From Burkholderiales bacterium PBB2 (GTDB lineage Bacteria; Pseudomonadota; Gammaproteobacteria; Burkholderiales; Burkholderiaceae_C): DNA of 62,290 nucleotides. Position numbers and translations under genes: made by a program. Below the pieces are notes generated by a model, which saw only the letters and a program-made list of their open reading frames with translations, was not told where the DNA came from and searched no databases. Below, one piece after another: positions 3,884 to 53,561 of this stretch (its first letter is position 1; every line of letters starts with the position of its first letter). The stretch spans positions 1-62,290 of the forward strand of contig NKIM01000030.1 in assembly GCA_002255955.1 (NCBI GenBank), read 5' to 3'.

Positions 3884-3930
3884 GGTGTGGAGCAGGTTGG
3901 GCAAACGGTGGGAGGCGGCGGATCGAGGCT

Positions 3931-5670
3931 TCAAAAGAAGGCGCTGAACTGTGCGTACAGCCGCGGATCTTTCTTCACGGTGTCACCCGTGGGCGTGCCC
4001 TTGATCGGTTTGGCGATGCTCAGTCGCAGGGCATACAAGCCCGGTCGCGCCCAGGCCAGGCCCAAACCTACGCCCGAGTACGACGCAGAGTTGCCCGAGC
4101 TGGATGCGCTGCTTGCGCCAGTTGCGCTTTGCCCGCTTGCCGGGTGGCGGCGAAAGGTCACCTGGCCGTAATCCGCGAACAGGGCCAACACCGTTTCTTG
4201 CGCCCATTGGCTGGTGAGCAGGGTGCTCAGCGGCGAGCGGAGTTCGAGGCTGGCGAGCAGGCCCGAGTCACCCGTGCCCTCACCGTTGGCAAACGCGCGC
4301 ACACCATCGGGGCCGCCCAGGCGGAACTGCTCGGTGGTGTCCAGATTGTTGAGGCTGTACTGGCCGCGCACACTCAGGTAGGCGAGCAAACGGCCGGTCA
4401 ACAGGTTTTGCAGGCGGGATACTGAAACATTCAGTTTGGTATATCGATCTTCGTCCGTCAAACCCGTGGGGCGATTGGTGATGTATTTGACTTGGCCGCT
4501 CGAAATATTCAGGTCATAACTGTTCACGCCGCCCGTCAATAAACTGTCACGAATATCTCCGTTGCCAGCAATACTGATACTCTGAACTTGTTTTTTGGTT
4601 TGTGAGGCCGAGGCTTCCTCACGGTCGTCGTAGTGTTTGGCGTCATACGCCACCAAGGCGAACCAGTTGAGATTGCGGGAGCGGATCACCGGGTACAGGC
4701 CAAAGGCGTTGAGGTTGACCGCACTGCCGTTTCGGCCAATCGGGAATTCCTTTTTGTCCAGTGCGTAACGCACCAGGGTGAGCGCCCCACCGCCCCGCAG
4801 GCCGCGTGCGCCGATCGGGCTGCTGTAGCTGCCGAGCAGGAATTTCATGCCTGCGTTGACGGAGCTCAGGCCGCTGAGAGAGGCGCTGTCGCCCCGGCCG
4901 AATGGGCTGGCGATCGTCATTTGGGCGCCGACGCGGCCCAGGCCGATGAAACGCGAGCCGTTCAGGTCGGCATCCACCTTGTAGGCCAGGCGGCGCTCTC
5001 GCTGCGGCCGAACGACCAGGGTGGCGGTTCCGGGGCGTCGCCCCGGTTCAATTTCAAAGCTGGCCACCACGCCCCGCAGATCGTTGAGCAGGAACACGAT
5101 GCGCTCCACCTGGCTGACCGTGAGGATGCTGCCAGGCTCCAGCTGCGCCAGATAGGACTCGACCACCGCCTTGTCCACCAACCAAGGCTGTTCATCCCAG
5201 ACCAAGCGAACCTGATCGAGGCGCCCTTCGAGCACGGCCAATTGAATGATGTTCCGGTCTGGCGTTTGCTCCGGGATGAAGGCATAGCCCAGGTAATAGC
5301 CCAACTCGCTCTGCAGAAAGCGTGTCACCGCGTCCTTGGCGTTCACCAGGTCTTCCCAGCTCTTGTTTTTGCCGACATACGGCGCGGTGAGGCGAGCCAA
5401 GGCAAGCTTCAAGGCCTCCGGTGCGTCGTCGGGGACGGCATAGCCTTCCACGTCGAGCACAACCTCGTCTTCAGGTTTCTGAAGCTCGCGCGGGACCGCG
5501 CGTTGCGGCAGCAGGCGCCGATCGCTGTCTGCAGGCTCCAGCTTGGGGCTGAGATCGGACGCCCGCGGAACCACGACAGGCGTGCTGACGCCCTGCGCCA
5601 GTGCTGCGGATGAATGCAGCGCCAGTGCCAGCAGCGAGACCGGCCATACCACTTGAACCTGTTTTTTCAC
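3931..5670 (-). CDS. TpsB outer-membrane transporter, FhaC/ShlB family
   Basis: Outer-membrane beta-barrel that secretes the adjacent TpsA. The 579-residue length fits the family. Residues 1-25 are a signal peptide ending ALAQG. Periplasmic POTRA-type domains lie at roughly 70-225 and the 16-strand barrel follows. The family signature near the C-terminus reads FRLGGPDGVRAF followed by GTGDSG, equivalent to the VRGY motif, and the protein ends in Phe as Omp85-type barrels do. The start is GTG at 5670, preceded by an AGGG Shine-Dalgarno about six bases away; the next residues are KKQVQVVW, a normal signal-peptide n-region. It is first in a two-gene operon with the left-edge tpsA. Confidence 0.93.
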   Translation of the reverse strand: MKKQVQVVWPVSLLALALHSSAALAQGVSTPVVVPRASDLSPKLEPADSDRRLLPQRAVPRELQKPEDEVVLDVEGYAVPDDAPEALKLALARLTAPYVGKNKSWEDLVNAKDAVTRFLQSELGYYLGYAFIPEQTPDRNIIQLAVLEGRLDQVRLVWDEQPWLVDKAVVESYLAQLEPGSILTVSQVERIVFLLNDLRGVVASFEIEPGRRPGTATLVVRPQRERRLAYKVDADLNGSRFIGLGRVGAQMTIASPFGRGDSASLSGLSSVNAGMKFLLGSYSSPIGARGLRGGGALTLVRYALDKKEFPIGRNGSAVNLNAFGLYPVIRSRNLNWFALVAYDAKHYDDREEASASQTKKQVQSISIAGNGDIRDSLLTGGVNSYDLNISSGQVKYITNRPTGLTDEDRYTKLNVSVSRLQNLLTGRLLAYLSVRGQYSLNNLDTTEQFRLGGPDGVRAFANGEGTGDSGLLASLELRSPLSTLLTSQWAQETVLALFADYGQVTFRRHPASGQSATGASSASSSGNSASYSGVGLGLAWARPGLYALRLSIAKPIKGTPTGDTVKKDPRLYAQFSAFF

Positions 5671-6785: not shown

Positions 6786-8129
6786 ATGAACTCTCGCAAA
6801 CACAAGCGGTCCAGCACGAATGCTCCGGCCTCCCAGCTGCAGCAGGGCCTCAAGGCCGCCATGAGCAAGCACCAGCAGGGCCAGATCCAGGCGGCCGCGG
6901 ATCACTACCGGGTCTTGCTCCAGTTCGCGCCAGACATGCCAGACGCCTTGCATTACCTCGGTGTGGCCGAGCACCAGCTCGGCCACCCGCAGGAGGCGGT
7001 GCGCATGATTCGGCGGGCGGTCGAGCTCGTGCCAGCTTATGTGGATGCCCACAACAACCTCGGCAATGTCCACAAAGAGCTGGGCCAGTTTGAAGAGGCA
7101 GAGGCCAGTTACCGGGCAGCCCTGGCCCTGCGCCCCGAGTTCGTGATGGCGCACAGCAATCTGGGCGTGGTCCTGGCCAAGCTCAAGCGCCATGAGGAAG
7201 CGCGCGCGAGCTACCAGAAGGCCATCGACCTCAAGCCCGACTTTGCCGATGCCTGGCACAACCTGGGCAATATGCTGAGCAAATGCGGGCGGCTGGAGGA
7301 GGCGCTTACGGCGTTCCGCCGAGCCATCGAGCTGGCGCCCTACACGGCCAGCGCCTACCAGGACCTGGGTAGTGCCCTGGCCGCCAGCGGGCGTGCCCCA
7401 GAAGCTCTGGCTGTGTACCAGCAGTGGCAAAAGATCGATCCTGACAATGCCGTGGTGGAGCACTTGATTGCTTCATGCGGTGGCGAGGCCAGGCACACGC
7501 GTGCATCGGACGGCTACGTCAAAGACGTCTTCGACCGTTTCTCTGAGACTTTCGACACCGTGCTCGCGGGCCTTGACTACCGCGCACCGGCGCAGGCCGC
7601 CGAGCTGATGGCTGAGCTGCTGGGCAAGCCCCGGGCCGCGCTGCAGGTGCTCGATGCCGGTTGCGGCACGGGCTTGTGCGCGCCCTACCTCAAGCCCTAC
7701 GCCCAGCAGCTGACCGGCGTGGACCTCTCGCAAGGCATGCTGGACAAAGCAGCGCTACGCAAGAGCTACGACCAACTGGAGCAGGCGGAGTTGAGCGCCT
7801 ATCTTGCTGAGCACCCCTCGGCCTTCGAACTCATCGTCTCCACCGACACGCTGATCTATTTCGGTGTCCTGCAGCAGGTCTTGGAGGCCGCAGCCGCAGC
7901 GCTGCGCCCGTCCGGGCATTTGGTGTTCACGCTTGAGGCACGCGAGGACGCGAGTGCACCGGGTTACAGCCTGCAACTGCACGGGCGCTACGGCCACAGC
8001 GAAAGCTATGTCCGCGGCGTTCTCGAAAAAGCGGGCCTAAGCATCCAGGCCATTCGCCGGGTGACGCTGCGCACCGAAAGCCATCGGCCCGTGTCGGGCT
8101 ATGTGTTCGCGGCTCAACGAGGGGCCTGA
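6786..8129 (+). CDS. TPR-repeat protein fused to a class I SAM methyltransferase
   Basis: A 447-residue fusion. Residues 20-225 hold about five to six tetratricopeptide repeats with regular 34-residue spacing (ALHYLGVAEHQLG, AHNNLGNVHKELG, AHSNLGVVLAKL, AWHNLGNMLSKC). Residues 240-447 are a Rossmann methyltransferase with SAM motif I VLDAGCGTG at 288-296 and the acidic loop GVDLSQGML. The layout matches the predicted TPR-containing methyltransferases of COG4976, whose substrate is unknown. It has no signal peptide, so it is cytoplasmic. It lies 41 nt upstream of the sheath-like fusion gene on the same strand and is probably co-transcribed, which makes that protein or another T6SS part a candidate target. 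That link is inference. Confidence 0.85.
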   Translation: MNSRKHKRSSTNAPASQLQQGLKAAMSKHQQGQIQAAADHYRVLLQFAPDMPDALHYLGVAEHQLGHPQEAVRMIRRAVELVPAYVDAHNNLGNVHKELGQFEEAEASYRAALALRPEFVMAHSNLGVVLAKLKRHEEARASYQKAIDLKPDFADAWHNLGNMLSKCGRLEEALTAFRRAIELAPYTASAYQDLGSALAASGRAPEALAVYQQWQKIDPDNAVVEHLIASCGGEARHTRASDGYVKDVFDRFSETFDTVLAGLDYRAPAQAAELMAELLGKPRAALQVLDAGCGTGLCAPYLKPYAQQLTGVDLSQGMLDKAALRKSYDQLEQAELSAYLAEHPSAFELIVSTDTLIYFGVLQQVLEAAAAALRPSGHLVFTLEAREDASAPGYSLQLHGRYGHSESYVRGVLEKAGLSIQAIRRVTLRTESHRPVSGYVFAAQRGA

Positions 8130-8170: not shown

Positions 8171-9658
8171 ATGGCAGGACGTCTGGAATTCAATTTTTCG
8201 AGCCCTTCTGCTGCATCGCAGGCGCGGGCGCGAGGCCAAGATGAGGCACAGCCCATGCGCATCCTCCTGCTCGGCAACTTCAGCGGCCGCCGTGGTGTAG
8301 CGGCTGCTGCCGACCTTGCGACACGGCCGACGCATCGGGTGGACACAGACACCCTGCCCGATCTGCTGCGCCGCTTGGCGCCCAGGGTGCCCGTCGGCGC
8401 CACGGCCTTCGAGGCTCAAGACATTGACGACTTCCATCCCGACAGCTTGTACGCACGCGTGCCGGTGTTCGCCTCGCTGCGCGAGCTGCGCCGCCGGCTG
8501 CAAGACCCGGCACAGTTTGCGCAAGCCGCGGCGGAGCTCGGCATGAACCCAGCAAAGCCTGATGTCAAGGCGGGCACAGCTCCGGCAGACACTGCGGGTG
8601 ATCTGTTGGCCGGATTGCTGGGTGGCCGGCCGGGTGCCGCCGCTGCTTACAGGGAAACACCGGCTGCCGCTCAAGCAGCGCCCGCCGGCATCGGTGCCTT
8701 CATACGCCAGATCGTCGCGCCCCATGTCGTGCCTGACCATGGGGCGCAGCAGGCGGCGCTGCTGGCGTCGGTCGATCTGGCGATTGCCGAGCAGATGCGG
8801 CAGCTGCTGCATGCGCCTGAATTCCAGGCCATCGAGTCCGCCTGGCGCGGTCTGCACTTGCTGCTGTCCCAGCTCGAACTTGATGAACAACTGCAGCTGC
8901 ATCTCTTGGATGTGAGCCGCGAGGAGGTGATCGCCGATCTTGTCTCGGCGCAGGGCGATGTCCCGCGCACCGGCCTGTTCCGCACCCTCGTCGAGCGCCA
9001 CCTTGGCGCGCCAGACGCGCAGGCCTGGAGCCTTTTCGTCGGCCTCATTAGTTTCGGCCCCTCGGACACCGACATCGGCCTGTTGGCCGCGCTGGGCGTG
9101 CTCGCATCCAAAGCCAGTGCCCCATTCCTGGCCGCGGCCGATATGGAGCTGGCACTGGCCGAACCTGCAGCCTTGACGGGCTGGCAGCGCTTGCGCCGCA
9201 GCGCTGAGCTAGCGCCCTGGATCGGCCTCTCGGCCCCTCGCCTGCTTTTGCGCGCACCCTACGGCCGCCGCAGCGACCCCATCACGGCCTTTGCCTTCGA
9301 AGAGCTCCCTGCCGGAGTGCCCGAGCATGAGCTCCTGCTCTGGGGGCCCTCCTCCTTGGTAACCGCCCTGCTCATCGCCCGCGCCTTCCGTCAACAGGGC
9401 TGGAACTTCGAGCCCGGCGATGAATGCGAACTGGGAGAGCTGCCGAGCTTCACCTACGAGCGCGATGGCGAAAAGGAGCTGCAAGCCTGCGCCGAAACCT
9501 ATCTCAGCGAACGCGCGGCTCAAGTGATCTTGGACGCGGGTTTGATGCCGTTGCTGAGCCACCGAAACCGGCATGCGGTGACGGTGATGCGGTTTCAGTC
9601 GATTTCAGAGCCGGCCGGCGGGCTGGCTGGGTTGGATTCAGACTCGACTCCGGTCTGA
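8171..9658 (+). CDS. TssB-TssC-like sheath fusion lacking the C-terminal sheath domain
   Basis: A 495-residue relative of the T6SS contractile sheath. Residues 1-115 resemble TssB/VipA: a basic start, MRILLLGNFSG at 29-39 (compare FVMGVLADLSG in TssB), then RVDTDTLPDLLRRLAPRV. Residues 190-480 align by eye with TssC/VipB: AWRGLHLLLSQLELDE against AWRGLHYMVNNTETDE, WQRLRRSAELAPWIGL against WRSLRESEDSKYIGL, and APYGRRSDPITAF against LPYGAKTNPVEAF. It stops where TssC reaches about residue 360, so the roughly 135-residue C-terminal region that supplies interlocking strands in sheaths is absent. An Ala/Pro linker (about 125-175) joins the halves. Separate tssB and tssC lie at 22229-24261, so this is an extra copy. 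It may cap, anchor or regulate the sheath. RBS AAGGGAG lies 12 bases upstream. Confidence 0.78.
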   Translation: MAGRLEFNFSSPSAASQARARGQDEAQPMRILLLGNFSGRRGVAAAADLATRPTHRVDTDTLPDLLRRLAPRVPVGATAFEAQDIDDFHPDSLYARVPVFASLRELRRRLQDPAQFAQAAAELGMNPAKPDVKAGTAPADTAGDLLAGLLGGRPGAAAAYRETPAAAQAAPAGIGAFIRQIVAPHVVPDHGAQQAALLASVDLAIAEQMRQLLHAPEFQAIESAWRGLHLLLSQLELDEQLQLHLLDVSREEVIADLVSAQGDVPRTGLFRTLVERHLGAPDAQAWSLFVGLISFGPSDTDIGLLAALGVLASKASAPFLAAADMELALAEPAALTGWQRLRRSAELAPWIGLSAPRLLLRAPYGRRSDPITAFAFEELPAGVPEHELLLWGPSSLVTALLIARAFRQQGWNFEPGDECELGELPSFTYERDGEKELQACAETYLSERAAQVILDAGLMPLLSHRNRHAVTVMRFQSISEPAGGLAGLDSDSTPV

Positions 9659-9701: not shown

Positions 9702-10901
9702 TTACTCAAGGAATGCCATGGCCCGCTGCGCGACGGCGCGAACCGAGCTGTAAAGCAGGCCCAACACCCAGCGCAAAAAGGCCACCGTCAACTCAGCCAT
9801 TTGCATGGCTTTGCGTCCGAGAAAAGCCCAGATGGCGCTTAGCAGGGCCTTGATGTGCACGCCTAGCTCCTTGGACAGCGCAGCACCCTGTGACAAGCCC
9901 CAGGCGAGTTGGTCCAGCACCGTGGCCCCCGCCACCAGAGCACCGCCCACGGCATGCAGCATGAGCTTGCCTGCCTGTTTCATCAGCCAAACCAGCGCGC
10001 GGCTGATCATGGTGAGCAGATGGGCCGAACCCATCAAAAAGCTGCCCTTGCCTTGAGCCGCGGTTTCCAGCCAGCTCTTGACTTGAGCAGCCTCTGAGCC
10101 ATACGCCATCGCGTCGCCTTCCAGATCTGCCCAGCTCTTGTTTGCACCCACGCCTTTGATGTAGCTGTCGGCCATGCTGTGGGCGTCTGCATTAATCAGC
10201 CCGCTGATGGAATTGCTGATCTGCAGGCCGGCGCGGCCAAAAGGCATGTGCCAAAAGGGGAACAAGGGAATCATCGGAACCGGGTCCGATGCGTGATAGA
10301 CGCGGTAGACACGGGGTGCACTGTCCGCCTGCAGTCTGCGCGTCAGCGAGCGTGCGAAAACGCCGTCGCCGATCCGCGGGGCGCCAAAGGTGTAGAGCGA
10401 CACCGGTGCCACATGCCTGTCGGTCAAACTGTCCGCGTTGAGCGAAGCCAGGGCACCGCCAAGACTGTGCCCCACGCAATGCACATGCCGAGGTCTTCGC
10501 CCATCGAGAAACTCCAGCAGCTTTCTCGAGAAGGTTTTCCAGATCTCGTGGAAGCCGGCATGCACCGGCAAGCCGCTGGGTCCGAGCTGAATGCCGATGT
10601 TGTAGTTGCTGATCCAGTCTGGCCCCGTCTTGGCGCCCAAAGTTCCGCGCGTTGCGACCAGCACATGGGCTTCGAACGGCGTGCCAGGTTCTCCTTCGGC
10701 GACGTAGCCAAATCCGGACAACTGCTTCCAGCGCAGGGCTCCGGAACAACCCTTCAAATAACCGGCACCGCGAGTCTGGAACAAGCCCTCGCAGCCGAGA
10801 TCCTGCTGATTCGCCGCCAGTTCCTCCAGCGTGGTGTGCTGCAGCTTGTAAACCCCACTGGCGATGGCCGCCGCTTGCTGCGGTGAGAGTGTCTGTGTCA
10901 T
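9702..10901 (-). CDS. Class 3 lipase, candidate T6SS phospholipase effector
   Basis: A 399-residue alpha/beta hydrolase of the fungal-lipase-like class 3 family. The nucleophile is Ser146 in GHSLGG. Asp206 (HASDPVPMIP) and His241 (DAHSMADSY) fit the remaining triad. Residues 290-395 hold several hydrophobic stretches (MLHAVGGALVAGATVL, ALLSAIWAFLG, FLRWVLGLLY) that could insert in or dock on a membrane. There is no signal peptide, as expected for a T6SS passenger. The start at 10901 (MTQTLSPQ) is preferred to 10931 because AGGGG sits five bases before it. It follows the DUF6795-like exported protein, an effector-immunity style arrangement. Class 3 lipase domains occur among T6SS Tle effectors; that role is inferred here from the neighbourhood. 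Confidence 0.82.
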   Translation of the reverse strand: MTQTLSPQQAAAIASGVYKLQHTTLEELAANQQDLGCEGLFQTRGAGYLKGCSGALRWKQLSGFGYVAEGEPGTPFEAHVLVATRGTLGAKTGPDWISNYNIGIQLGPSGLPVHAGFHEIWKTFSRKLLEFLDGRRPRHVHCVGHSLGGALASLNADSLTDRHVAPVSLYTFGAPRIGDGVFARSLTRRLQADSAPRVYRVYHASDPVPMIPLFPFWHMPFGRAGLQISNSISGLINADAHSMADSYIKGVGANKSWADLEGDAMAYGSEAAQVKSWLETAAQGKGSFLMGSAHLLTMISRALVWLMKQAGKLMLHAVGGALVAGATVLDQLAWGLSQGAALSKELGVHIKALLSAIWAFLGRKAMQMAELTVAFLRWVLGLLYSSVRAVAQRAMAFLE

Positions 10902-10940
10902 GCTGCCCCTCCGAAGAATTCGCTCGAACAAGCCGTCAAA

Positions 10941-11441
10941 TCACTGCAACTCGCAGATGCCAAACACCTCACCGTGTTTCGCGGGTTCTCGCTCTAACCT
11001 GCACACCATTTGGATCGGGCGGCCATCCAGTTCGCCGTTGTCCTTGTAATTGCGCTTGAAGAAATACCAAGCCTTGTAGCTTTTGCCCTCGTGGACGATC
11101 AAGATGGTTTGCTTGACCATGGGTTCACTGGGAAGCAAGCGATCCAGAAGCGAAGCCTTGCGAGTCAAGGCGGGCAGCACGAAGCTGCCATCCGCCGCCG
11201 TATTGGCGCGGTCGGTCGATTTCTCGTCGTTCCACTCGACCTGGCGCTCGATCACGGCCCCCACCACGGCCCGCCCTTGCTCCAGGACGGTGCCCTTGAC
11301 CTGCGAAAAAATGACTCTTGGACTGCTGTTTGCCATGGCGGCTCCTTGGAATGACAGGCAGGCCACGATGGCAGGGCCTGCGACTTTCTTCAGTGCCCAC
11401 GAAAACTTGCTTCTGCGGCTGGTTTGAGCAAATTTTTTCAT
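10941..11441 (-). CDS. Small exported protein resembling DUF6795, candidate lipase immunity protein
   Basis: A 166-residue protein with an N-terminal signal peptide (basic start MKKFAQTSRRSKF, hydrophobic core IVACLSFQG, cleavage near AMA-NS). The mature part has a carboxypeptidase-regulatory-like beta fold: SQVKGTVLEQGRAVVGAVIER, followed by GSFVLPAL. I recognise this pattern as DUF6795-like. An in-frame TTG at 11468 is possible, but ATG 11441 gives a better signal peptide. It ends 39 nt before the lipase start and shares its strand. Periplasmic location and tight linkage make it a plausible neutraliser of the lipase. An alternative role is a chaperone or accessory protein. Confidence 0.65.
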   Translation of the reverse strand: MKKFAQTSRRSKFSWALKKVAGPAIVACLSFQGAAMANSSPRVIFSQVKGTVLEQGRAVVGAVIERQVEWNDEKSTDRANTAADGSFVLPALTRKASLLDRLLPSEPMVKQTILIVHEGKSYKAWYFFKRNYKDNGELDGRPIQMVCRLEREPAKHGEVFGICELQ

Positions 11442-11628
11442 GAACGAATTGGGCGGATTTTGAGTCAACTGGGAATCATATTCACCAGCTCAGAATTCCT
11501 GATTGGAAATGTGCCTCAGTTGCTGCACTTCACGAGCAAGTAATGCCATAAACTGAGTGTTCAGTCATGAAAGAGCGAGCCTCATGTCCAGTCACCGCAT
11601 TCTTTAGGACCTGCCCCGGATTCGCTTG

Positions 11629-13221: not shown

Positions 13222-14148
13222 TCAAACCGCATTGCCAAGGGCCTCGTCCACGTGGTCCACACAGTCGAAGAAGATCTCGAACGCCGTCCAAGGGATCCAG
13301 AAATCGCCCTGGCCCGCGGTGGTGACGGCCTGCCAGGTGGTGGTGGTGGTGTAGCGCTTGATGTGGCTGCCCCAGGGGTTGTAAAGCCGTACCGCGGGCA
13401 CCGGCGGGTTGTCCACGCCCACCGGGCCAAACTGGTGGGTGCCCACCTCCCACACTGCGTAGGCGTGGCTGCCCACAATGCCTTTGATGATGGTGTGGTT
13501 CAAGGCAATGCCGCCCGGGCCGGGAAACATGCCTTGCAGCACCGGCGTCTGTTTGGACTGCACCACCATCGGGTAGCCCGCCGCGTGGTGGCCCAGCATG
13601 GCGTTGTACTGGCCGGCGATGGCGGTGCGCACCGCGTCTTTGCCGGTCAGCATGGCAAGGGCACATTTGGGAAAGCCCGAGTTCATGCGGATCAAGTTCG
13701 GGTTCTTGGGCTCGTAGACGATCTTGGTGGCGTCAAAGCTGTTGCTCATGAAAGCCGCGCCAAACACCTGAAACATCGACACCCACAGCGCGCTGTTCTC
13801 GGTCTTCATCGCTGCGCCAGAGCCGCTTTCCTGCAGCGCAAACTGCTTCTTGGCCTTCATCAAATGTTGCCGCTTGCCGCCGTCCCACAGGCTGCAAAAT
13901 ACAAACTCGTCGCCGTTGTCCAGCATGCGGTCTTGCAGAAAGGTGGCACCGTTTTGCCGCAGCGCGATGCTCAGCAAGCTGGACAGGTACCAGCAATTGC
14001 CCAACTGGCCTTGGGTGATGTCGGTGTACACGACAACACCGCCGCTGGGGTAGAGCGTGCCGGTGCCAGCCAGCTTGGTCCACCACTTGCCTTCCGCACG
14101 CACGTCAATGCGCTGAGCCTTGGTCTTGTCTGCCACTGTCAAAGCCAT
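13222..14148 (-). CDS. Calpain-like (C2-type) cysteine peptidase, candidate T6SS effector
   Basis: A 308-residue protein with the calpain protease core. The Cys52 motif QGQLGNCWYLSSL matches calpain QGxxGDCWxLxxL. His228 lies in KGIVGSHAYAV, matching the GHAY motif. Asn257 lies in RLYNPWG, matching RxRNPWG. All three catalytic residues are thus present in the right order. There is no signal peptide, no EF-hand and no other domain, so it is a free-standing catalytic unit. It is the last intact gene of the tss operon, starting 57 nt after the tssH stop, a common place for cargo genes. It could act on eukaryotic or bacterial targets, or process a T6SS component. No immunity gene is obvious; the downstream gene is a broken TPR remnant. 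Confidence 0.8.
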   Translation of the reverse strand: MALTVADKTKAQRIDVRAEGKWWTKLAGTGTLYPSGGVVVYTDITQGQLGNCWYLSSLLSIALRQNGATFLQDRMLDNGDEFVFCSLWDGGKRQHLMKAKKQFALQESGSGAAMKTENSALWVSMFQVFGAAFMSNSFDATKIVYEPKNPNLIRMNSGFPKCALAMLTGKDAVRTAIAGQYNAMLGHHAAGYPMVVQSKQTPVLQGMFPGPGGIALNHTIIKGIVGSHAYAVWEVGTHQFGPVGVDNPPVPAVRLYNPWGSHIKRYTTTTTWQAVTTAGQGDFWIPWTAFEIFFDCVDHVDEALGNAV

Positions 14149-14205: not shown

Positions 14206-16947
14206 TCAGGCGGCCTCGCCAAAGCGGTAGACAAAGTCAGCTCCCTGGGTTTGCACCGTCACGCTGGTGATGGGCTTGCCTTCCATCATGCGGTTGAGAA
14301 ACTCGCGGCTGATGTCTGGCAACATCGTGTTGGTCAAAATCGCATCAATCATCCGTCCACCCGATTCCGACTCGGTGCAACGCGAAACCACCAGCTTCAC
14401 CACCTCATCGCTGTACTCAAACGGAATCTTGTAGCGCGCCTCCACCCGCTTCTTGATGCGGTTCAGTTGCAGACGAACGATCTGGCCGAGCATTTCGTCA
14501 GACAGCGGGTAATAGGGAATCGCAACCAGGCGACCCAACAAGGCCGGCGGGAAGATCTTCAGCAGCGGCTCGCGCAAAGCCTTGGCCATGCCCTCGGGAT
14601 CGGGCATCAGGTCCGGGTCTTTGCACAGCCCGGCGATCAGGTCGGTGCCGGCGTTGGTGGTCAGCAGAATCAGGGTGTTCTTGAAGTCGATGAAGCGGCC
14701 TTCGCCGTCTTCCATAAAACCTTTGTCGAAGACCTGGAAGAACATTTCGTGGACGTCGGGGTGGGCTTTTTCCACCTCGTCCAGCAACACCACGCTGTAG
14801 GGTTTGCGGCGCACGGCTTCGGTCAGCACGCCGCCTTCGCCATAGCCCACATAGCCCGGGGGCGCGCCTTTGAGCGTGCTGACCGTGTGGGCCTCCTGGT
14901 ACTCGCTCATATTGATGGTGATGAGGTTTTGCTCACCGCCGTAGAGCGCCTCGGCCAGGGCCAGGGCCGTCTCGGTCTTGCCCACGCCCGAGGTGCCGGC
15001 CAGCATGAAGACGCCAATCGGTTTGCTCGGGTTGTCCAGGCCGGCGCGGCTGGTCTGGATGCGCTTGGCGATCATCTCCATCGCATGGTCCTGGCCGATC
15101 ACGCGCTGGCCCAGATGCTCGGCCACCTTGAGGATCGTCTCGATCTCGTTGCGGGCCATGCGGCCGACCGGGATGCCGGTCCAGTCGCCTACCACCGCGG
15201 CCACGGCCTGGTAGTCCACCGTGGGCAGGATCAGCGGGTTCTCGCCTTGCAGCGCGGCCAGCTTTTCCTGCACCGCGTTCAGCTGTGTCAACAGGCCTTG
15301 GCGCTCGGCCTCTCGGTCGCTGTCGGTCAGGCCTTCGGTTGCGGCTTCGGCAGCCGCGTCGGCCTCCAGCTTGCTGCCCGTGCCCTCGACCGGGCGGATG
15401 CCGGCGCGCAGCTTGCCGCGCAGATCCAGCAGCTGGTCGACCAGGGCCTTTTCTTCGCCCCAGCGCAGGTCCAGCGCGGCCAGGCGGGCGCGCTCTTCGG
15501 CCAGGGCCAGCGACGCTTCTTCCTCGCGCTTGCCGATGGCGATGCCAATGGCCTTCTCGCGCGCGATGATGCCCAGCTCCACCTCCAGCGCTTCGATGCG
15601 CTTGCGGCTGTCGTCCACCTCGGCGGGCGTGGCATGGAGGCTCACGGCCACGCGGGCGCAGGCGGTGTCCAGCAGGCTGACGCTCTTGTCGGGCAGTTGG
15701 CGGGCCGGGATGTAGCGGTGGCTGAGCTTGACGGCGGCTTCCAGCGCTTCATCGAGGATCTGCACCTGGTGGTGCTTTTCCATGGTGCTGGCCACGCCGC
15801 GCATCATCAGGATGGCCTTGGGCTCGTCGGGCTCGTCCACCTGCACGGTCTGGAAGCGGCGGGTCAGGGCCGGGTCCTTCTCGATGTGCTTTTTGTACTC
15901 GGCAAAAGTGGTGGCGCCGATGGTGCGCAGGGTGCCGCGGGCCAGGGCCGGCTTCAGCAGATTGGCTGCGTCGCCCGTGCCGGCCGCGCCGCCGGCGCCG
16001 ACCAGGGTGTGGGTTTCGTCAATGAACAGGATGATGGGCTTGGGGCTGGCCTGCACCTCGTCAATCACGGAGCGCAGGCGTTGCTCGAACTCGCCCTTCA
16101 TGCTGGCGCCGGCCTGCAGCAGGCCCACGTCGAGCGCGCGCAGCTCCACCTCCTTGAGGCTGGGCGGCACATCGCCACGGGCAATGCGCTGGGCAAAGCC
16201 TTCCACCACCGCGGTCTTGCCCACGCCGGCCTCGCCCACCAGGATGGGGTTGTTCTGACGGCGGCGCATGAGGATGTCCACCACCTGGCGGATCTCGTCA
16301 TCACGGCCGACGATGGGGTCCATCTTGCCGTTGCGCGCTTGCTCGGTCAGGTCGACGGTGAACTTCTTCAAGGCTTCTTGCTTGCCCATGGCCGCCGGGG
16401 CCACGGCGCCGCTCTCCTCGCCGGGGCTGCTGCCTGCGGCGGAGGAGCCGTCGGTGGCGCCCTGCCCTTCCTCGGGCGAACCGGCCAGCACCTGGGCCAG
16501 GCGGTCGCTCAGGTCTTCCACCTTGAGCTTCTCGAACTGGCGGCTGATGGCGATCAGCGCATTGCGCAAGGTCTTGGTCTTGAGCATGCCCACCAGCACA
16601 TAGCCGGTTCGCACCGTGTTGTCGCCGTACAGCAGCGTGCCGTAGACCCAGCCGCGCTCGATGGAATCGGCGATGTTTTCGGCAATGTCCGAGATGCTGG
16701 TGGCGCCACGCGGCAGGCGGTCGAGCGCGGCCGTCAAGTCCTTGGCCAGGGCGGCGGTGTCGAGCTCGCCGAACTTGATGATGCGGTGCCAGTCCGAATC
16801 GGCGAGCTGCAGGATCTGCGCAATCCAATGCTCCAGCTCGACATAGGGGTTGCCGCGCAGCTTGCAGAAGACGGTGGCGCCCTCAACCGCTTTGTAGGCG
16901 GTGCTGTTCAACTTGCCGAAGAGGGTCACGCGGTTGATGTCCGCCAT
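14206..16947 (-). CDS. tssH: T6SS sheath-recycling AAA+ ATPase ClpV
   Basis: Hexameric ATPase that disassembles contracted TssB/TssC sheath. It is 913 residues long, normal for the family. Residues 1-150 form the Clp N-domain, followed by a Ser/Gly/Glu-rich linker (156-187). AAA1 carries Walker A GEAGVGKT at 238-245 and Walker B ILFIDETHT. A coiled-coil middle domain spans about 445-570. AAA2 carries Walker A GTSGVGKT at 651-658 and Walker B VVLLDEVEKAH. The pore-loop GYVGYGEGG is present. It lies 70 nt after tssG in the tssA-to-tssH run. The long plus-strand open frame over it is an antisense shadow. Confidence 0.97.
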   Translation of the reverse strand: MADINRVTLFGKLNSTAYKAVEGATVFCKLRGNPYVELEHWIAQILQLADSDWHRIIKFGELDTAALAKDLTAALDRLPRGATSISDIAENIADSIERGWVYGTLLYGDNTVRTGYVLVGMLKTKTLRNALIAISRQFEKLKVEDLSDRLAQVLAGSPEEGQGATDGSSAAGSSPGEESGAVAPAAMGKQEALKKFTVDLTEQARNGKMDPIVGRDDEIRQVVDILMRRRQNNPILVGEAGVGKTAVVEGFAQRIARGDVPPSLKEVELRALDVGLLQAGASMKGEFEQRLRSVIDEVQASPKPIILFIDETHTLVGAGGAAGTGDAANLLKPALARGTLRTIGATTFAEYKKHIEKDPALTRRFQTVQVDEPDEPKAILMMRGVASTMEKHHQVQILDEALEAAVKLSHRYIPARQLPDKSVSLLDTACARVAVSLHATPAEVDDSRKRIEALEVELGIIAREKAIGIAIGKREEEASLALAEERARLAALDLRWGEEKALVDQLLDLRGKLRAGIRPVEGTGSKLEADAAAEAATEGLTDSDREAERQGLLTQLNAVQEKLAALQGENPLILPTVDYQAVAAVVGDWTGIPVGRMARNEIETILKVAEHLGQRVIGQDHAMEMIAKRIQTSRAGLDNPSKPIGVFMLAGTSGVGKTETALALAEALYGGEQNLITINMSEYQEAHTVSTLKGAPPGYVGYGEGGVLTEAVRRKPYSVVLLDEVEKAHPDVHEMFFQVFDKGFMEDGEGRFIDFKNTLILLTTNAGTDLIAGLCKDPDLMPDPEGMAKALREPLLKIFPPALLGRLVAIPYYPLSDEMLGQIVRLQLNRIKKRVEARYKIPFEYSDEVVKLVVSRCTESESGGRMIDAILTNTMLPDISREFLNRMMEGKPITSVTVQTQGADFVYRFGEAA

Positions 16948-19978: not shown

Positions 19979-20485
19979 TCAGCGGTCGAGTTCGCGCACG
20001 GCGACTCGCCCAGTTTCAAGATCGATGTCGGTCTTCAGCAGCAGTTCCAGGGGCACGGGCTGAGCCCAGAGCTGGCCGGCGATGCGAAAGCCGATCTGGT
20101 TGTGGTGGTCCAGCTGCTGGGCCGAGACCACGGCTTCGACGACCAGGGTCTCGGGCAGGATGCGCGGCTCATGGTCGAGGATGGCCTGGCGCACGTTCTG
20201 CTGCAACAAAAGCAGGTCCACATTGGAGACGCTGCTGCCGGAGAGCGGTGGCAGGCCGAAACTGAGCACCGACTTGTGCGCATGCTCGGCGCCCTGCCAG
20301 TCGATGTGAGCGCTGGGTGAGGTGGCATTGAACAACCAGGCCAGGTCACGCAAGACCATCTCGCGCAGCTGGCTGCGACCGATCACGCGCGACTCGGAGC
20401 TTTCGACTTGCGACAGCGGTTCATCGTCAGTCAGGCGGTCCAGCAGTGCGGGCTGGAGCCTATCTCGGGCGCGCAACTGGGCCAT
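19979..20485 (-). CDS. tssE: T6SS baseplate protein TssE, gp25-like
   Basis: A 168-residue gp25/lysozyme-fold-like wedge protein that nucleates sheath assembly. Recognisable parts are LRDLAWLFNATS, HKSVLSFGLPPLSG and the C-terminal ETGRVAVREL. The start at 20485 (MAQLRARDRLQ) is chosen because it follows the tagJ stop by 22 nt and restores the usual family length; an upstream in-frame ATG at 20548 would overlap tagJ and add an unrelated Pro/Arg-rich extension. Confidence 0.92.
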   Translation of the reverse strand: MAQLRARDRLQPALLDRLTDDEPLSQVESSESRVIGRSQLREMVLRDLAWLFNATSPSAHIDWQGAEHAHKSVLSFGLPPLSGSSVSNVDLLLLQQNVRQAILDHEPRILPETLVVEAVVSAQQLDHHNQIGFRIAGQLWAQPVPLELLLKTDIDLETGRVAVRELDR

Positions 20486-20507
20486 GGTGCAATCGCTTTG
20501 CAGGGGC

Positions 20508-21353
20508 TCAGCCGGCCGCCGAGGGCTGCTCGGCGGCCGCCGTGCCATCGGTGGATGCCGACAGCACCACGGTGCGAACGTCCATCAGGGCCAGATCGCC
20601 GTGGTCGGTGGCCCACAGGCGTTGCCCGAGGCCGGTGAAGTCATCGTCGCCCCGCGCACGCCATTCGGTCGCGCGCGACAAGGCCAGCGCGTCACCGCGC
20701 TCCAGGTCGGTGTCGGGGTAGCGGGTCGGGATCAGGCCCACGACTTCGCCGCCATTGCTGAAGACGAAGTGACCGGGCATCCAGACGGCATCGCGCAGGT
20801 CCTGGGGCGGGTCCAGTTCCAGCCGCTCAATGCGGTTCCAGGGCAGCCAGTAGTACTTGCCGTTGATGATGGCCTCGATCACGGGGCCAAGCCGGCTGTC
20901 GGCATCGGCAATCCATTCAAAGGGCTGATCGTTGATCTGTCCGGCGCTGGTTGGCGCCTGTTCCAGCGCTTGGGCGCGGAGTTGGCAGCCGGCGGCCACG
21001 TCACCCTGCCCTTCGCGCAGCAAGGCTTCGATCAGCAAGGCCACCCAGGGCTCAGGCTCGCCAAAGAGCATGGGCACTTTTTCGCCAGCAAACACCTTCA
21101 TGCGCAGTGCTTCGCAGGCGATGGCTTCGCGGTAGGTCTGCACCATGGGCAACATGCCTGCATCCAGCTCCAGCGCCACATTGAGCTGGTTCAAAGCGCG
21201 CTGCCACTGGCCGCTGACGCACAGGAGCTGGAACAGGAACACACGCAGCTTGGCGTCTTGTGGCTGGCTGCGAATCTGCTCGCTCAAGAGTTTGAGAGCC
21301 GCCTTGGCGTCACCGTCTTTGAGGGCTTGTTCGGCGGGAGATGGGTGGGCCAT
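20508..21353 (-). CDS. tagJ: T6SS accessory protein TagJ (ImpE family)
   Basis: A 281-residue ImpE/SciE-type accessory protein. In other T6SSs TagJ binds the N-terminal helix of TssB and influences ClpV action on the sheath. The N-terminal third is helical (QALKDGDAKAALKLLSEQI); the C-terminal part has FEWIADADSRLGPVIEA and INGKYYWLPW, typical of the family. The ATG at 21353 (MAHPSPAEQAL) is chosen over the far upstream start because the extra upstream frame is low-complexity and crosses the intergenic hairpin. It lies between hcp and tssE. Confidence 0.93.
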   Translation of the reverse strand: MAHPSPAEQALKDGDAKAALKLLSEQIRSQPQDAKLRVFLFQLLCVSGQWQRALNQLNVALELDAGMLPMVQTYREAIACEALRMKVFAGEKVPMLFGEPEPWVALLIEALLREGQGDVAAGCQLRAQALEQAPTSAGQINDQPFEWIADADSRLGPVIEAIINGKYYWLPWNRIERLELDPPQDLRDAVWMPGHFVFSNGGEVVGLIPTRYPDTDLERGDALALSRATEWRARGDDDFTGLGQRLWATDHGDLALMDVRTVVLSASTDGTAAAEQPSAAG

Positions 21354-21594
21354 ATGAGGTTTCCGTTCGCCTTGGAGCAGGACAGCGCGGGGAATTCGGG
21401 TCAGGTATCGAGCCGTGCGACACAGCGGTGACGGCTCAACAGAGAAATTCAAGAGGGGAACATGTCCCCGGCCCCAACACGGCGGCGCCGATGCTGGGGC
21501 GGGTGACCGTGGGCGCAACACGGTGACTGCTGTGACCTGCCGCTGGCAGAAAAAAGCACGCCGGTCGCAGCCCTGCTTCCCTGGCTGGGAAACT

Positions 21595-21625
21595 GGCCGG
21601 CGCATGCGGTGCAGCAGCGCCGGCC
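21595..21625 (-). terminator. Strong hairpin downstream of hcp, possible attenuator
   Basis: A perfect 9-bp stem GGCCGGCGC/GCGCCGGCC with a 13-base loop lies 13 bases beyond the hcp stop on the minus strand and is followed by CAGTTTCCC. The hcp-tagJ gap is 285 bases, the longest inside this tss run. A partial terminator here would let Hcp be made in excess over downstream baseplate genes. The lack of a long T-run lowers confidence. Confidence 0.45.
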
Positions 21626-21638
21626 CATCGCGGACCAA

Positions 21639-22228: not shown

Positions 22229-23719
22229 TCAAGCGGCCTTGGCCGAGGGCAGCTTGGACACCAGACGCAGGGACACGGTCAGGCCTTCGAGCTGGTAGTG
22301 CGGGCGGAGGTAGAACTTCGAGCTGTAATAGCCAGGGTTGCTCGGGTCTTCCTCCACCACCACCTCGGCGGCCGAGAGCGGGTGGCTGGCCTTGTACTCT
22401 TCCGACGAACGCGACGGGTCGCCGTCCACGTACTGGGTGATCCACTGAGACAGCCAGCGCTGCACCTCATCGCGCTCCTTGAACGAGCCGATCTTGTCGC
22501 GCACGATGCACTTCAGGTAGTGCGCGAATCGGCAGGTGGCGAAGAGGTAAGGCAGGCGCGCGGCCAGATTGGCGTTGGCCGTGGCGTCCGGGTCGTCATA
22601 CTCGGCCGGCTTGTGCAGAGACTGGGCGCCGATGAAGGCGGCGAAATCGCTGTTCTTGCGGTGCACCAGGGGCATGAAGCCGTTCTTGGCCAGCTCGGCT
22701 TCGCGACGGTCTTCGATCGCGATTTCGGTCGGGCACTTCATGTCCACGCCGCCGTCGTCGGTCGGGAAGGTGTGGGTGGGCAGGTTCTGCACCGCACCGC
22801 CCGATTCAATGCCGCGGATGCGCGTGCACCAGCCGCTTTCCTTGAAGGAGCGGTTGATGTTGGTGGCCATGGCGTAGGCGGCGTTGGCCCAGGTGTACTT
22901 GCCATGGTCGGCCGAACCGGTGTCTTCCTCGAAGTCGAAGGCCTCGACCGGGTTGGTCTTGGCACCGTAAGGCAGGCGCGACAGGAAACGCGGCATGGCC
23001 AGACCGATGTACTTGGAATCTTCCGACTCGCGCAGCGAGCGCCAGGCGGCATAGTCTGGCGTGGAGAAGATCTTGGTCAGGTCGCGCGGGTTGGCAAGCT
23101 CCTGCCAGGAGTCCATCTGCAGCAGCGTGGGCGAACCGCCGGTGATGAAGGGCGCATGGGCCGCAGCGGCAATCTTGGCCATCTCCGACAGAAGCTCCAC
23201 ATCGGGCGCGCTTTGGTCAAAGTGGTAGTCGCCCACCAGGCAACCGAAGGGCTCGCCACCAAACTGGCTGAACTCTTCTGAGTAGATCTTCTTGAAGATC
23301 GGGCTTTGGTCCCAGCTGGTGCCCTTGTAGCGCTTGAGCGTCTTGCCGAGTTCGGCCTTGGACACATTCATCACGCGGATCTTCAGCGACTCGTCGGTCT
23401 CGGTGTTGTTCACCATGTAGTGCAGACCGCGCCAGGCGCCTTCGAGCTTCTGATAGTCCTGGTGATGCAGGATCAGATTGATCTGATCGGACAGCTTCTT
23501 GTCGATGGCGGCGATCATGGCCTCGATCGAGGACACCACATCGCTGCCGATCAGCTGGGTCTGGGCCAGGGCTTGCTGGGCCAGGGTCTGCACGGCTTGT
23601 TCGACCGCGCCCTTGGCGTCATCCGACTTGGGCTTGAATTCCTTCTGCAGCAAGGAGGCCAGGTCGCTGCCTTCGAAGCTGACGCCAGCCAGCGCGGCGG
23701 AGGCTTGGGTTTCTGCCAT
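22229..23719 (-). CDS. tssC: T6SS sheath large subunit TssC
   Basis: A 496-residue VipB/ImpC-type sheath protein that forms the contractile cylinder with TssB. Conserved stretches are LEGAWRGLHYMVNNTETDE, FGCLVGDYHFD, YIGLAMPRFLSRLPYG and the C-terminal FYLRPHYQLEGLTVSLRLVS. The complete C-terminal domain (about 365-496) is present, in contrast to the fusion protein at 8171-9658. It lies 44 nt after tssB, the usual order. Confidence 0.97.
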   Translation of the reverse strand: MAETQASAALAGVSFEGSDLASLLQKEFKPKSDDAKGAVEQAVQTLAQQALAQTQLIGSDVVSSIEAMIAAIDKKLSDQINLILHHQDYQKLEGAWRGLHYMVNNTETDESLKIRVMNVSKAELGKTLKRYKGTSWDQSPIFKKIYSEEFSQFGGEPFGCLVGDYHFDQSAPDVELLSEMAKIAAAAHAPFITGGSPTLLQMDSWQELANPRDLTKIFSTPDYAAWRSLRESEDSKYIGLAMPRFLSRLPYGAKTNPVEAFDFEEDTGSADHGKYTWANAAYAMATNINRSFKESGWCTRIRGIESGGAVQNLPTHTFPTDDGGVDMKCPTEIAIEDRREAELAKNGFMPLVHRKNSDFAAFIGAQSLHKPAEYDDPDATANANLAARLPYLFATCRFAHYLKCIVRDKIGSFKERDEVQRWLSQWITQYVDGDPSRSSEEYKASHPLSAAEVVVEEDPSNPGYYSSKFYLRPHYQLEGLTVSLRLVSKLPSAKAA

Positions 23720-23763: not shown

Positions 23764-24261
23764 TCAGGCGTCGCTGGGCTTGGCCGTGGAGGCCAGGGAG
23801 CCGAGCAGGGCCGGGTCGGCCATCAGCTTGCCGATCAGTTCTTCAGCGCCGCCCTTGCCGTCCATATAGGTCACCAGGTTTTGCAGCTGTTGGCGGGCTT
23901 CGAGCAGCTTGCTCAGCGAATCGACCTTGCGGGCCACGGCGTCGGGCGAGAAGTCGTCCATGCTGTCGAAGGTGATGTCCACGCTCAGATTGCCTTCACC
24001 GGTCAAGGTGTTGGGCACCTGGATGGCCACGCGCGGCTTCATGGCCTTCATGCGGGCATCGAAGTTGTCGACATCGACTTCCAGGAACTTGCGATCAGCC
24101 ACGGGCGCCAGAGGCTCGGCCGGCGTGCCGGACAGGTCTGCCAGCACACCCATCACGAAGGGCAGCTGCACCTTCTTCTCGGCGCCATAGACCTCGACGT
24201 CATATTCGATCTGCACCCGCGGTGCGCGATTGCGGGCGATGAATTTTTGGCTGCTACTCAT
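23764..24261 (-). CDS. tssB: T6SS sheath small subunit TssB
   Basis: A 165-residue VipA/ImpB-type sheath protein. The start at 24261 (MSSSQKFIARNRAPRVQIEYD) has AGGAG seven bases upstream; an upstream in-frame start at 24294 adds eleven residues without support. Conserved features are VQLPFVMGVLADLSG, FLEVDVDNFDARM and a C-terminal helical region (KLLEARQQLQNLVTYMDGK) that contacts TssC. It lies between tssA and tssC. Confidence 0.97.
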   Translation of the reverse strand: MSSSQKFIARNRAPRVQIEYDVEVYGAEKKVQLPFVMGVLADLSGTPAEPLAPVADRKFLEVDVDNFDARMKAMKPRVAIQVPNTLTGEGNLSVDITFDSMDDFSPDAVARKVDSLSKLLEARQQLQNLVTYMDGKGGAEELIGKLMADPALLGSLASTAKPSDA

Positions 24262-24339
24262 TCCAGGCTCCTGTGCGACGTAGAAGAAAGTCAAAAAACT
24301 CGCGGCACTGTGGTGTCATGGGGGCCGCGAATTGAAGGG

Positions 24340-25377
24340 TCAGTTGTTGTCGTTGTTGTAGGGATCGATGCCCACCAGGCCAGCCACACCGGCCAGGGCA
24401 TCGGGGGCCAACATCCTCACCAGCTGGAGGAAGTTCTGGTTGATCAATTCACTGCCTCGACGCAAAAACAAGGGGGCGGGATTCGAGGGCTCCACCCGCT
24501 CTAGGTACTCGCAAACCATGGCGATGGCCTTCAGCGCATCCTCGCGCGAGTTGACACTGCCGGACAGCCCCCGCTCCGGCGCCCTAACGCCGGAAGCCAT
24601 GGACTGCTCACCCTGCGCGGAAGTATCCGCCGCAGCCGCTTCCGCGTGCGCTTCGGCGGGAAAAGTACCGAAGACTCCCTGCACCAGGTTTTGCAGCGGA
24701 CGCAGGTCGGGCGCTTGGTCGTGGCCGAGCTTGTCGAGCAGCAGCGAGCGCAGGGTTTTCAGCTGCTGCAATGCGGCTTCGCAGGCGGCGCGCAGGCCCG
24801 GCTTCTTGCCCTCGGCCGCAGCCGCCATCTGGCTCAAGGCGGCGGTGCTCAGCACCTCTTCGTTTTCCCACGCGGGTGACAGGCCGAGCGCCACTTCCAC
24901 CTGGCGCCCGGTCACCAGGCCGATGCTGCGATCCTCGATCAGGCGGGATTCACGCAAATCGCCGATCAGCCCCTCCGCCTCACGCAGCAAGGTCAGAGCA
25001 TTGACCCGGGCGTACGGGTCGCCGTCATCGGGGTCCGGCAGCGGGTGCACGTGCTCCCACAGGCCATCGACCATGCGCTGCAGCAACTCCAGGCCGACAG
25101 CGAGGCTGGCATAGCCCTCCAAATGCACCAAAGAGCGCAGCCAAAAGATGGCGAGGCGCAGATCGCGGCTGCGATCCAGCAAGGCCTCGGACAGCTCCAT
25201 CACCTCTCGCCACGCTGGTGGCTCGGCCGCACCAAACTGCGACTCCGGCTTGCCTGCCGCAGCACGGGTCAGGCTCAGGAAGTCGTTGTCGTACTCGAGG
25301 TCGGGGCCGCAGGGCGCGCTGTCGTCGGCCAGCGGTGTCGCCCAGCGCTCGATCTTCTCGCGCTCGTTCTCAGTCAT
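24340..25377 (-). CDS. tssA: T6SS assembly protein TssA
   Basis: A 345-residue ImpA-domain protein that caps and primes tail assembly. The N-terminal ImpA domain includes PCGPDLEYDNDFL and WREVMELSEALLDRSRDLRLA. The C-terminal part ends PSNPAPLFLRRGSELI and FLQLVRMLAPDAL, the pattern of the short-form TssA class. The ATG at 25377 (MTENEREKIERW) is preferred to the GTG at 25386 because AAGG lies eight bases before it. It follows ppkA after 39 nt. Confidence 0.94.
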   Translation of the reverse strand: MTENEREKIERWATPLADDSAPCGPDLEYDNDFLSLTRAAAGKPESQFGAAEPPAWREVMELSEALLDRSRDLRLAIFWLRSLVHLEGYASLAVGLELLQRMVDGLWEHVHPLPDPDDGDPYARVNALTLLREAEGLIGDLRESRLIEDRSIGLVTGRQVEVALGLSPAWENEEVLSTAALSQMAAAAEGKKPGLRAACEAALQQLKTLRSLLLDKLGHDQAPDLRPLQNLVQGVFGTFPAEAHAEAAAADTSAQGEQSMASGVRAPERGLSGSVNSREDALKAIAMVCEYLERVEPSNPAPLFLRRGSELINQNFLQLVRMLAPDALAGVAGLVGIDPYNNDNN

Positions 25378-25416
25378 ATCAAACACCTTGTCTCAAGAGT
25401 CTTCCCATCGATCGCC

Positions 25417-53542: not shown

Positions 53543-53561
53543 GCCTCGTGCCCCTGCTGCC

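Follow-up and report, generated by a model that had tools for sequence, protein, structure and literature searches.

Why should a genome with a complete tssB/tssC pair for the sheath of its type VI secretion system (T6SS) also encode a protein in which a TssB-like and a TssC-like part are joined in one chain that stops short of the TssC C-terminus? The question is raised by a gene at 8171-9658 in a 62,290-nucleotide stretch of Burkholderiales bacterium PBB2 (assembly GCA_002255955.1, contig NKIM01000030.1, positions 1 to 62,290, forward strand), hereafter called the window. Judged by its sequence, the product is a near-complete sheath protomer in a single chain minus the handshake domain, and we suggest calling it a handshake-less sheath pseudo-protomer, a compact variant of the TssCL kind. 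For many T6SS, and chiefly where TagA is absent, it is an open question how sheath growth ends and what occupies the distal end of the sheath; the fused protein is a small, testable candidate.

Architecture of the fused protein

The gene and its parts are as follows.

8171..9658, + strand: fused gene for a handshake-less sheath paralogue, 495 codons plus stop (open reading frame, Pfam and NCBIfam matches, homologues, structure model)
8180..8197, + strand: TssB-type N-terminal arm strand RLEFNF, residues 4-9, aligned to RVQIEY of the window's TssB
8252..8506, + strand: TssB (VipA) core, residues 28-112, Pfam PF05591, E 3e-7
8600..8623, + strand: linker helix DLLAGLLG, residues 144-151, at the position of the TssC N-terminal helix
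8738..9616, + strand: TssC core, residues 190-482
9596..9655, + strand: short C-terminal tail QSISEP..LAG, where VipB_2 would be

A preliminary description, made from the letters of the window alone, had read this gene as one polypeptide with a TssB-like N-terminus and a TssC-like body. The open reading frame, its coordinates and both homologies were borne out by profile searches: PF05591 is matched over profile positions 27-122 of 155, and VipB (PF05943) covers residues 197-477 with an E-value of 1e-46. The TssB portion proved larger than an N-terminus, for TssB is nearly whole: aligned to the window's canonical TssB, which carries a full VipA domain, the fused protein retains both the arm strand and a stretch matching the C-terminal part of TssB, and by this alignment the TssB arm is the only interlocking element that has been kept. 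On the TssC side, residues 196-482 align with residues 67-372 of the window's TssC at 29% identity (BLASTP); the truncation had thus been recognised correctly, and its end corresponds to TssC residue 372 or so rather than to about 360.

What is missing is the handshake domain. The Pfam scan matched VipB_2 in the window's TssC, along with VipB, but not in the fused protein. In the available text of PMC5807055 and PMC5813253, from which we take the roles of the parts, VipB_2 is sheath domain 1 and the source of the interlocking strands, in line with the earlier proposal that the lost piece supplies them. A polymerising protomer has both linker arms and a domain 1 acceptor sheet; in the fused protein the C-terminal part of TssC is gone and the TssB arm is kept. 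Both equivalog models place it below their cut-offs, with 166.6 bits against 271.5 for TIGR03355 (TssC) and 31.6 bits against 97.25 for TIGR03358 (TssB).

A frameshift after 9658 that restores the C-terminal domain was looked for and none was found. A search of the whole genome for VipB_2 gave a single place, 22250-22585, within the canonical tssC.

A large family that keeps company with T6SS

Two homologue searches, each with about 8000 candidates scored, returned 775 proteins (E 1e-3) and at least 2000 (E 1e-20), and the best 120 of each were examined. These 240 homologues are 435-584 residues long, and 238 have PF05591 together with PF05943, the other two PF05943 only. In a set of 83 members (the window protein, 76 homologues and 6 loci), the Pfam scan found VipA and VipB in every one and VipB_2 in none. 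The truncated end is a shared feature: 230 of the 240 carry a QS(L/I)A-like motif whose start lies a median of 15 residues before the C-terminus, and 115 end in an LxGxW-like tail, 108 of them in the more distant set of 120. Upstream, hydrophobic residues alternate loosely in the arm region of 211 homologues, out of 213 of the 240 that allowed scoring, and in the linker helix L146, L149, L150 and G151 are invariant in 28 rows, with L149, L150 and G151 present in at least 90% of the 83 rows. The distance from arm to core, 26-27 residues in canonical TssB (23 distinct sequences), is 26-42 in the fused homologues (median 29; 30 or more in 81 of the 167 that the search pattern caught, with 73 of the 240 missed), and this lengthening is suggestive only.

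The gene is under purifying constraint by the ratio of nonsynonymous to synonymous substitution rates (dN/dS): comparison with the nearest relative, over 377 aligned codons, gives 0.21, and three same-genus genomes compared with one another give 0.14-0.15; wider comparisons (0.27 for the window against genome G005, 0.30 against G089) had dS above 1.6 and were given no weight. Between G005 and G006, identity is 76% for the fused protein, 99% for TssC, 82% for TssA and 77% for a methyltransferase with tetratricopeptide repeats (TPR). The fused protein is far less conserved than TssC and therefore does not seem constrained by self-polymerisation. A frameshift or truncation artefact was ruled out by the common end points of the homologues, by the absence of VipB_2 from all 83 members and by its confinement to the canonical tssC, and dN/dS rules out a pseudogene for the family, although the copy in G016 is broken. 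That remnant (contig C28, locus L056, 1089-1403) lies between a homologue of the TPR-methyltransferase gene and vgrG.

Carriers are scattered. Of 17 further genomes from the window's genus, four have the fused gene (G001, G002, G005 and G006, the G002 copy being cut by a contig end), besides the one with the broken copy. With the own genome excluded, it was found in 2 of 398 genomes of a draw from the order and 2 of 397 from the phylum (both at E 1e-75), and in 12 of 368 from the class (E 1e-110); the family alignment matches 88 of 398 phylum genomes at E 1e-20 (own included), nearly all through canonical TssC. Besides the window's genome there are 21 carriers (G001, G002, G005, G006, G089, G101, G550, G747, G798 and the 12 of the class draw). 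Canonical TssC is present in 20 of them, the exception being G1001, and TssK in 19. The co-occurrence with T6SS loci has thus been checked, and the claim that the gene is an addition and not a replacement stands. VipB_2 was found in 51 of 274 class genomes (own included); it is present in 8 of the 9 carriers taken to belong to that draw, against 42 of 264 (Fisher p about 6e-6, with the membership of G1001 assumed and kinship uncorrected). In G000, G001, G005, G006, G089, G550, G877 and G1000 the gene shares its contig with the T6SS cluster and is no more than about 25 kb from tssC, and the same holds on plasmids of Ruegeria, Qingshengfaniella and Eleftheria. It is also often encoded away from the cluster, in some cases on long contigs (794 kb in G928, 213 kb in G747).

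The TssB N-terminus in 23 carrier sets is of the H1/TagJ type (QKFIARNRAPRV) in 17, of a KPRVHITYD type with two TssC genes in 5 and Vibrio-like in one (G747), the type names following in part PMC4239648, as far as its available text goes. In the KPRVHITYD-type carriers (G550 at locus L054, G847, G928, G1025 and G1128), two TssC genes, each with VipB_2, lie next to each other.

How does the family relate to TssCL, which was named in 2022 in roseobacter T6SS and, in the available text of PMC9515649, is reported only from roseobacters and other Alphaproteobacteria with a recent origin suggested? In a quick maximum-likelihood tree of 96 TssC cores, one branch splits 46 fused from 50 canonical rows with a Shimodaira-Hasegawa-like approximate likelihood ratio test (SH-aLRT) value of 100; each row was labelled according to which of two window proteins, the fused one or TssC, it scored higher against in BLAST, so that the split is in part a restatement of similarity, and the tree was rooted at its midpoint. 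Identical rows and rows outside the length and coverage limits were dropped, and the TssB part was not checked for every fused row (L098 starts at a contig end). The second TssC proteins of G550 and G620 stand among the canonical rows. The fused rows include three heads, those of Ruegeria (L099), Qingshengfaniella (L100) and Eleftheria (L101), of which L099 and L100 may be taken as TssCL-type by their architecture, with two VipA stretches, one VipB and no match to VipB_2. This suggests that the VipB parts of the fused protein and of TssCL share descent; a single origin of the fused clade may be read from the tree, which is compatible with it, and branch lengths together with the spread of carriers point to an old family. 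The TssCL head would then belong to a far wider family, in which the missing piece is the handshake domain, and the reported recent alphaproteobacterial fusion looks like a side branch of a paralogue that is older and widespread.

The L099 reading frame exceeds the annotated coding sequence: its first part is an entire TssB that shares 79% identity with the TssB of the cluster, and after it come some 640 residues of acidic repeats, then the TssB-TssC head and, last, an acidic tail. The repeats are acidic DxLLxDL-like units in a long row and may be multivalent. Annotated starts of these TssCL-type genes drop the complete N-terminal TssB (L099, 15571-19716, annotated start 16309; L100, 16015-19653, annotated start 16465). 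Among the matches listed, the compact form occurs in records named as beta- or gammaproteobacteria, plus single Rhodospirillales and Rokubacteria entries, and where it is named it most often goes as an ordinary sheath large subunit or as ImpC. Under such names the family is easily overlooked and can confuse T6SS typing based on TssC. The preliminary view of an extra, odd protein falls short of this, since the protein belongs to a large family with alphaproteobacterial relatives already named. We found no paper on the compact form in the open-licence PMC literature.

A proposed dead-end sheath subunit and its rivals

We consider the best explanation, with a probability of roughly 0.4, to be an accessory sheath-protomer paralogue that is dedicated to the T6SS and acts as a dead-end subunit. 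The fused protein would dock on an assembled sheath through the TssB arm and the flanks of domains 2 and 3 and would occupy a normal protomer position. The acceptor sheet (beta11/12) and the TssC C-terminal arm (beta13) are absent, so the next ring could not be built on it and growth would be blocked. In the Rhodobacterales TssCL-type proteins, a long acidic linker tethers the head to an additional TssB, which should be able to enter the sheath itself, and this fusion in nature of the head with a near-canonical TssB is the best indirect sign that the head acts on the sheath. In its most general form, a non-polymerising partner of the T6SS sheath, the idea is probable. That the protein forms a cap at the distal end, the site we favour, is plausible, if short of probable, and more doubtful is a fuller picture in which an old and widespread T6SS component ends or holds the sheath where TagA is absent, a protomer stripped of its handshake domain serving as chain terminator and TssCL as a tethered, ruler-like version with one end in the sheath and the other capping it.

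Several observations weigh against a dead-end subunit. The one-sided sheath interface proposed earlier fits the anatomy, with the TssB arm kept and the acceptor and the TssC C-terminal arm gone, but in the monomer model residues 1-13 and 15-19 have a predicted local distance difference test (pLDDT) score below 50 and the arm is not a strand. With only one of two downward linkers left, the protein would dock less firmly than a normal ring does, and in the contracted sheath the TssB strand contact lies within the same disc (PMC5807055, available text). Evolution much faster than that of TssC fits a regulator or an arms-race protein too. T6SS genes are present without a match to the fused gene in G011 and G014 (79% complete) of the same genus; neither VipB_2 nor TssK was found in the carrier G1001 (locus L110, contig C179; 95% complete, 290 contigs), nor TssK in the carrier G995 (87% complete). 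In 13 of the 21 other carriers (G002, G101, G747, G798, G847, G862, G928, G986, G995, G1025, G1084, G1128 and G1135), all draft assemblies, the gene and the match to VipB_2 or to canonical VipB stand on different contigs. Bearing on the distal cap is the number of ImpA_N matches, a single one in each of the 19 carriers examined (the own genome among them), a count made without a control set of T6SS genomes lacking the fused gene; TssA-like proteins, TagA included, have this domain in common (PMC6745524, available text), and hence no separate TagA was found in the 19.

The retained linker helix would equally suit a decoy or adaptor that faces ClpV, in which domains 2 and 3, the outer layer of the sheath, are kept together with a TssC-type N-terminal helix, so that the protein binds ClpV or a ClpV partner and tunes disassembly. 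A VipB helix with an LLDEIM motif binds ClpV (PMC4239648, available text), the helix is retained in the family as described above, and in several genomes the linker resembles the TssC N-terminus of its own host (FLDSIMQETQ and LLSQIMTETR in G747, SDFQKLIGD and SEFEALLTKEF in L099, DLLAGLLGG and DLASLLQKEF in the window), a likeness that supports this role as much as the sheath model. It was read by eye, without statistics, at positions that are homologous anyway, and the linker is unrecovered or partial in G877, G986 and G995. Moreover, most of the TssB segment bound by TagJ (QKFIARNRAP) is absent from the fused protein, and the N-domain of ClpV1 from the H1 system of Pseudomonas aeruginosa, the type to which 17 of the 23 carrier sets belong, was not found to bind the TssC helix in the available text of PMC4239648; on balance, a ClpV-facing role seems unlikely. 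Still less probable, in our view, is a partnership at the baseplate, where TssE, the gp25-like handshake domain alone, and the fused protein, the rest, would together make a first, initiating or blocking ring. Their domain contents are complementary, TssE has been proposed as acceptor for the linkers of the first sheath ring (PMC5813253, available text), and the fused gene adjoins vgrG in G001, G005, G006, G862, G986 and L099 and is one small gene apart from it in L100. TssE is standard in T6SS, however, and the fused protein is absent from most T6SS genomes sampled, with 2 carriers besides the own genome among the 88 phylum genomes with TssC-type matches.

A cytosolic antagonist, chaperone or effector-loading factor that stays outside the sheath and binds VgrG cargo or free TssB, TssC or Hcp would go with evolution as fast as that of the TPR neighbour in the comparison of G005 with G006, and with the presence of vgrG nearby in G862 and G986, accompanied in the former by a DUF4123 gene and in the latter by a homologue of it; the Rhodobacterales form has a near-canonical TssB that should insert into sheaths, and we rate this reading as low as the baseplate one. 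A decaying, functionless duplicate finds an example in the broken copy of G016, but dN/dS among near relatives and the same end points in most of the listed homologues disfavour it so strongly that we give it next to no credence.

Genomic setting and known relatives

The other genes of interest in the window are these.

6786..8129, + strand: TPR and class I methyltransferase gene, ending 41 bp before the fused gene (Pfam)
14206..16947, - strand: clpV (AAA_2, AAA_lid_9, ClpB_D2-small; named by context)
19979..20548, - strand: tssE, gp25-like (Pfam GPW_gp25), a possible acceptor for the arm
20508..21638, - strand: tagJ (ImpE)
22229..23719, - strand: canonical tssC, VipB and VipB_2
23764..24294, - strand: canonical tssB, with an N-terminus of H1/TagJ type (Pfam)
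24340..25386, - strand: tssA, ImpA_N its sole Pfam match and the genome's only one

The reference tssC is where it had been placed, on the minus strand. The TPR-methyltransferase gene is likely to be co-transcribed with the fused gene. Its homologues adjoin the fused gene in G089 (two tandem copies after it) and the remnant in G016; they lie by T6SS clusters in G005, G006 and G016, in the first two away from the fused gene. A fixed partner gene was sought by clustering the neighbours in 21 stretches, the window being represented by its first 20 kb, and no cluster was common to all; frame picking was crude and passed over even the fused gene in four of the stretches (G089, G877, G1000 and Eleftheria), so that the counts are lower bounds. 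vgrG was picked in at least 5 of the 21, and the most frequent non-T6SS cluster (at least 6 of 21) holds ABC-transporter ATPases, which we take as chance. TPR proteins are near the fused gene in the window, G089, G847, G1001 and, weakly, G747, and are too common to count.

Between the fused gene and the T6SS cluster, a class 3 lipase gene (9702-11468, - strand) stands by a DUF6795 gene and looks like an effector candidate with its partner. A calpain-type cysteine protease gene (Peptidase_C2; 13222-14148, - strand) adjoins clpV, in our impression unusual for a T6SS cluster. The left flank (2-5670, - strand) holds two-partner secretion genes, a TPS-domain protein with a ShlB-type transporter, and the right flank (51803-62288, + strand) a second ShlB-type transporter followed by a 2909-codon reading frame that runs past the window end.

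Among known systems, TssCL is closest in plan: according to the available text of PMC9515649, it too has a TssB-like part and VipB in one chain beside separate tssB and tssC. TssCL has in addition a near-canonical TssB, making two VipA stretches in a very long chain, with long acidic repeats in L099, whereas the window protein is the compact head, with one VipA and 495 residues; the missing handshake domain is not discussed in that text. Canonical TssB/TssC (VipA/VipB) share the core fold and order and the TssB arm with the window protein and differ in being two chains, in having VipB_2 and in forming their own clade; the window protein also scores below the TIGR03355 and TIGR03358 equivalog cut-offs. 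A tandem second TssC, as in Agrobacterium, is likewise an additional TssC-type protein in a T6SS genome (PMC5813230, available text). Unlike the fused gene, such tandem genes, as in G550, G847, G928, G1025 and G1128, give two VipB_2 places each, and both TssC of G550, the only one of the five in the tree, are on the canonical side. Sheath proteins of extracellular contractile injection systems (eCIS), pyocins and phages have TssB- and TssC-like parts in a single chain as the window protein does, at a sequence identity of only 7-15%; they retain the handshake domain and polymerise. With the distal-end proteins TagA and TssA (PMC6745524 and PMC7545191, available text), finally, the likeness is one of proposed role only, the end of sheath growth, since their domain, ImpA_N, is unrelated.
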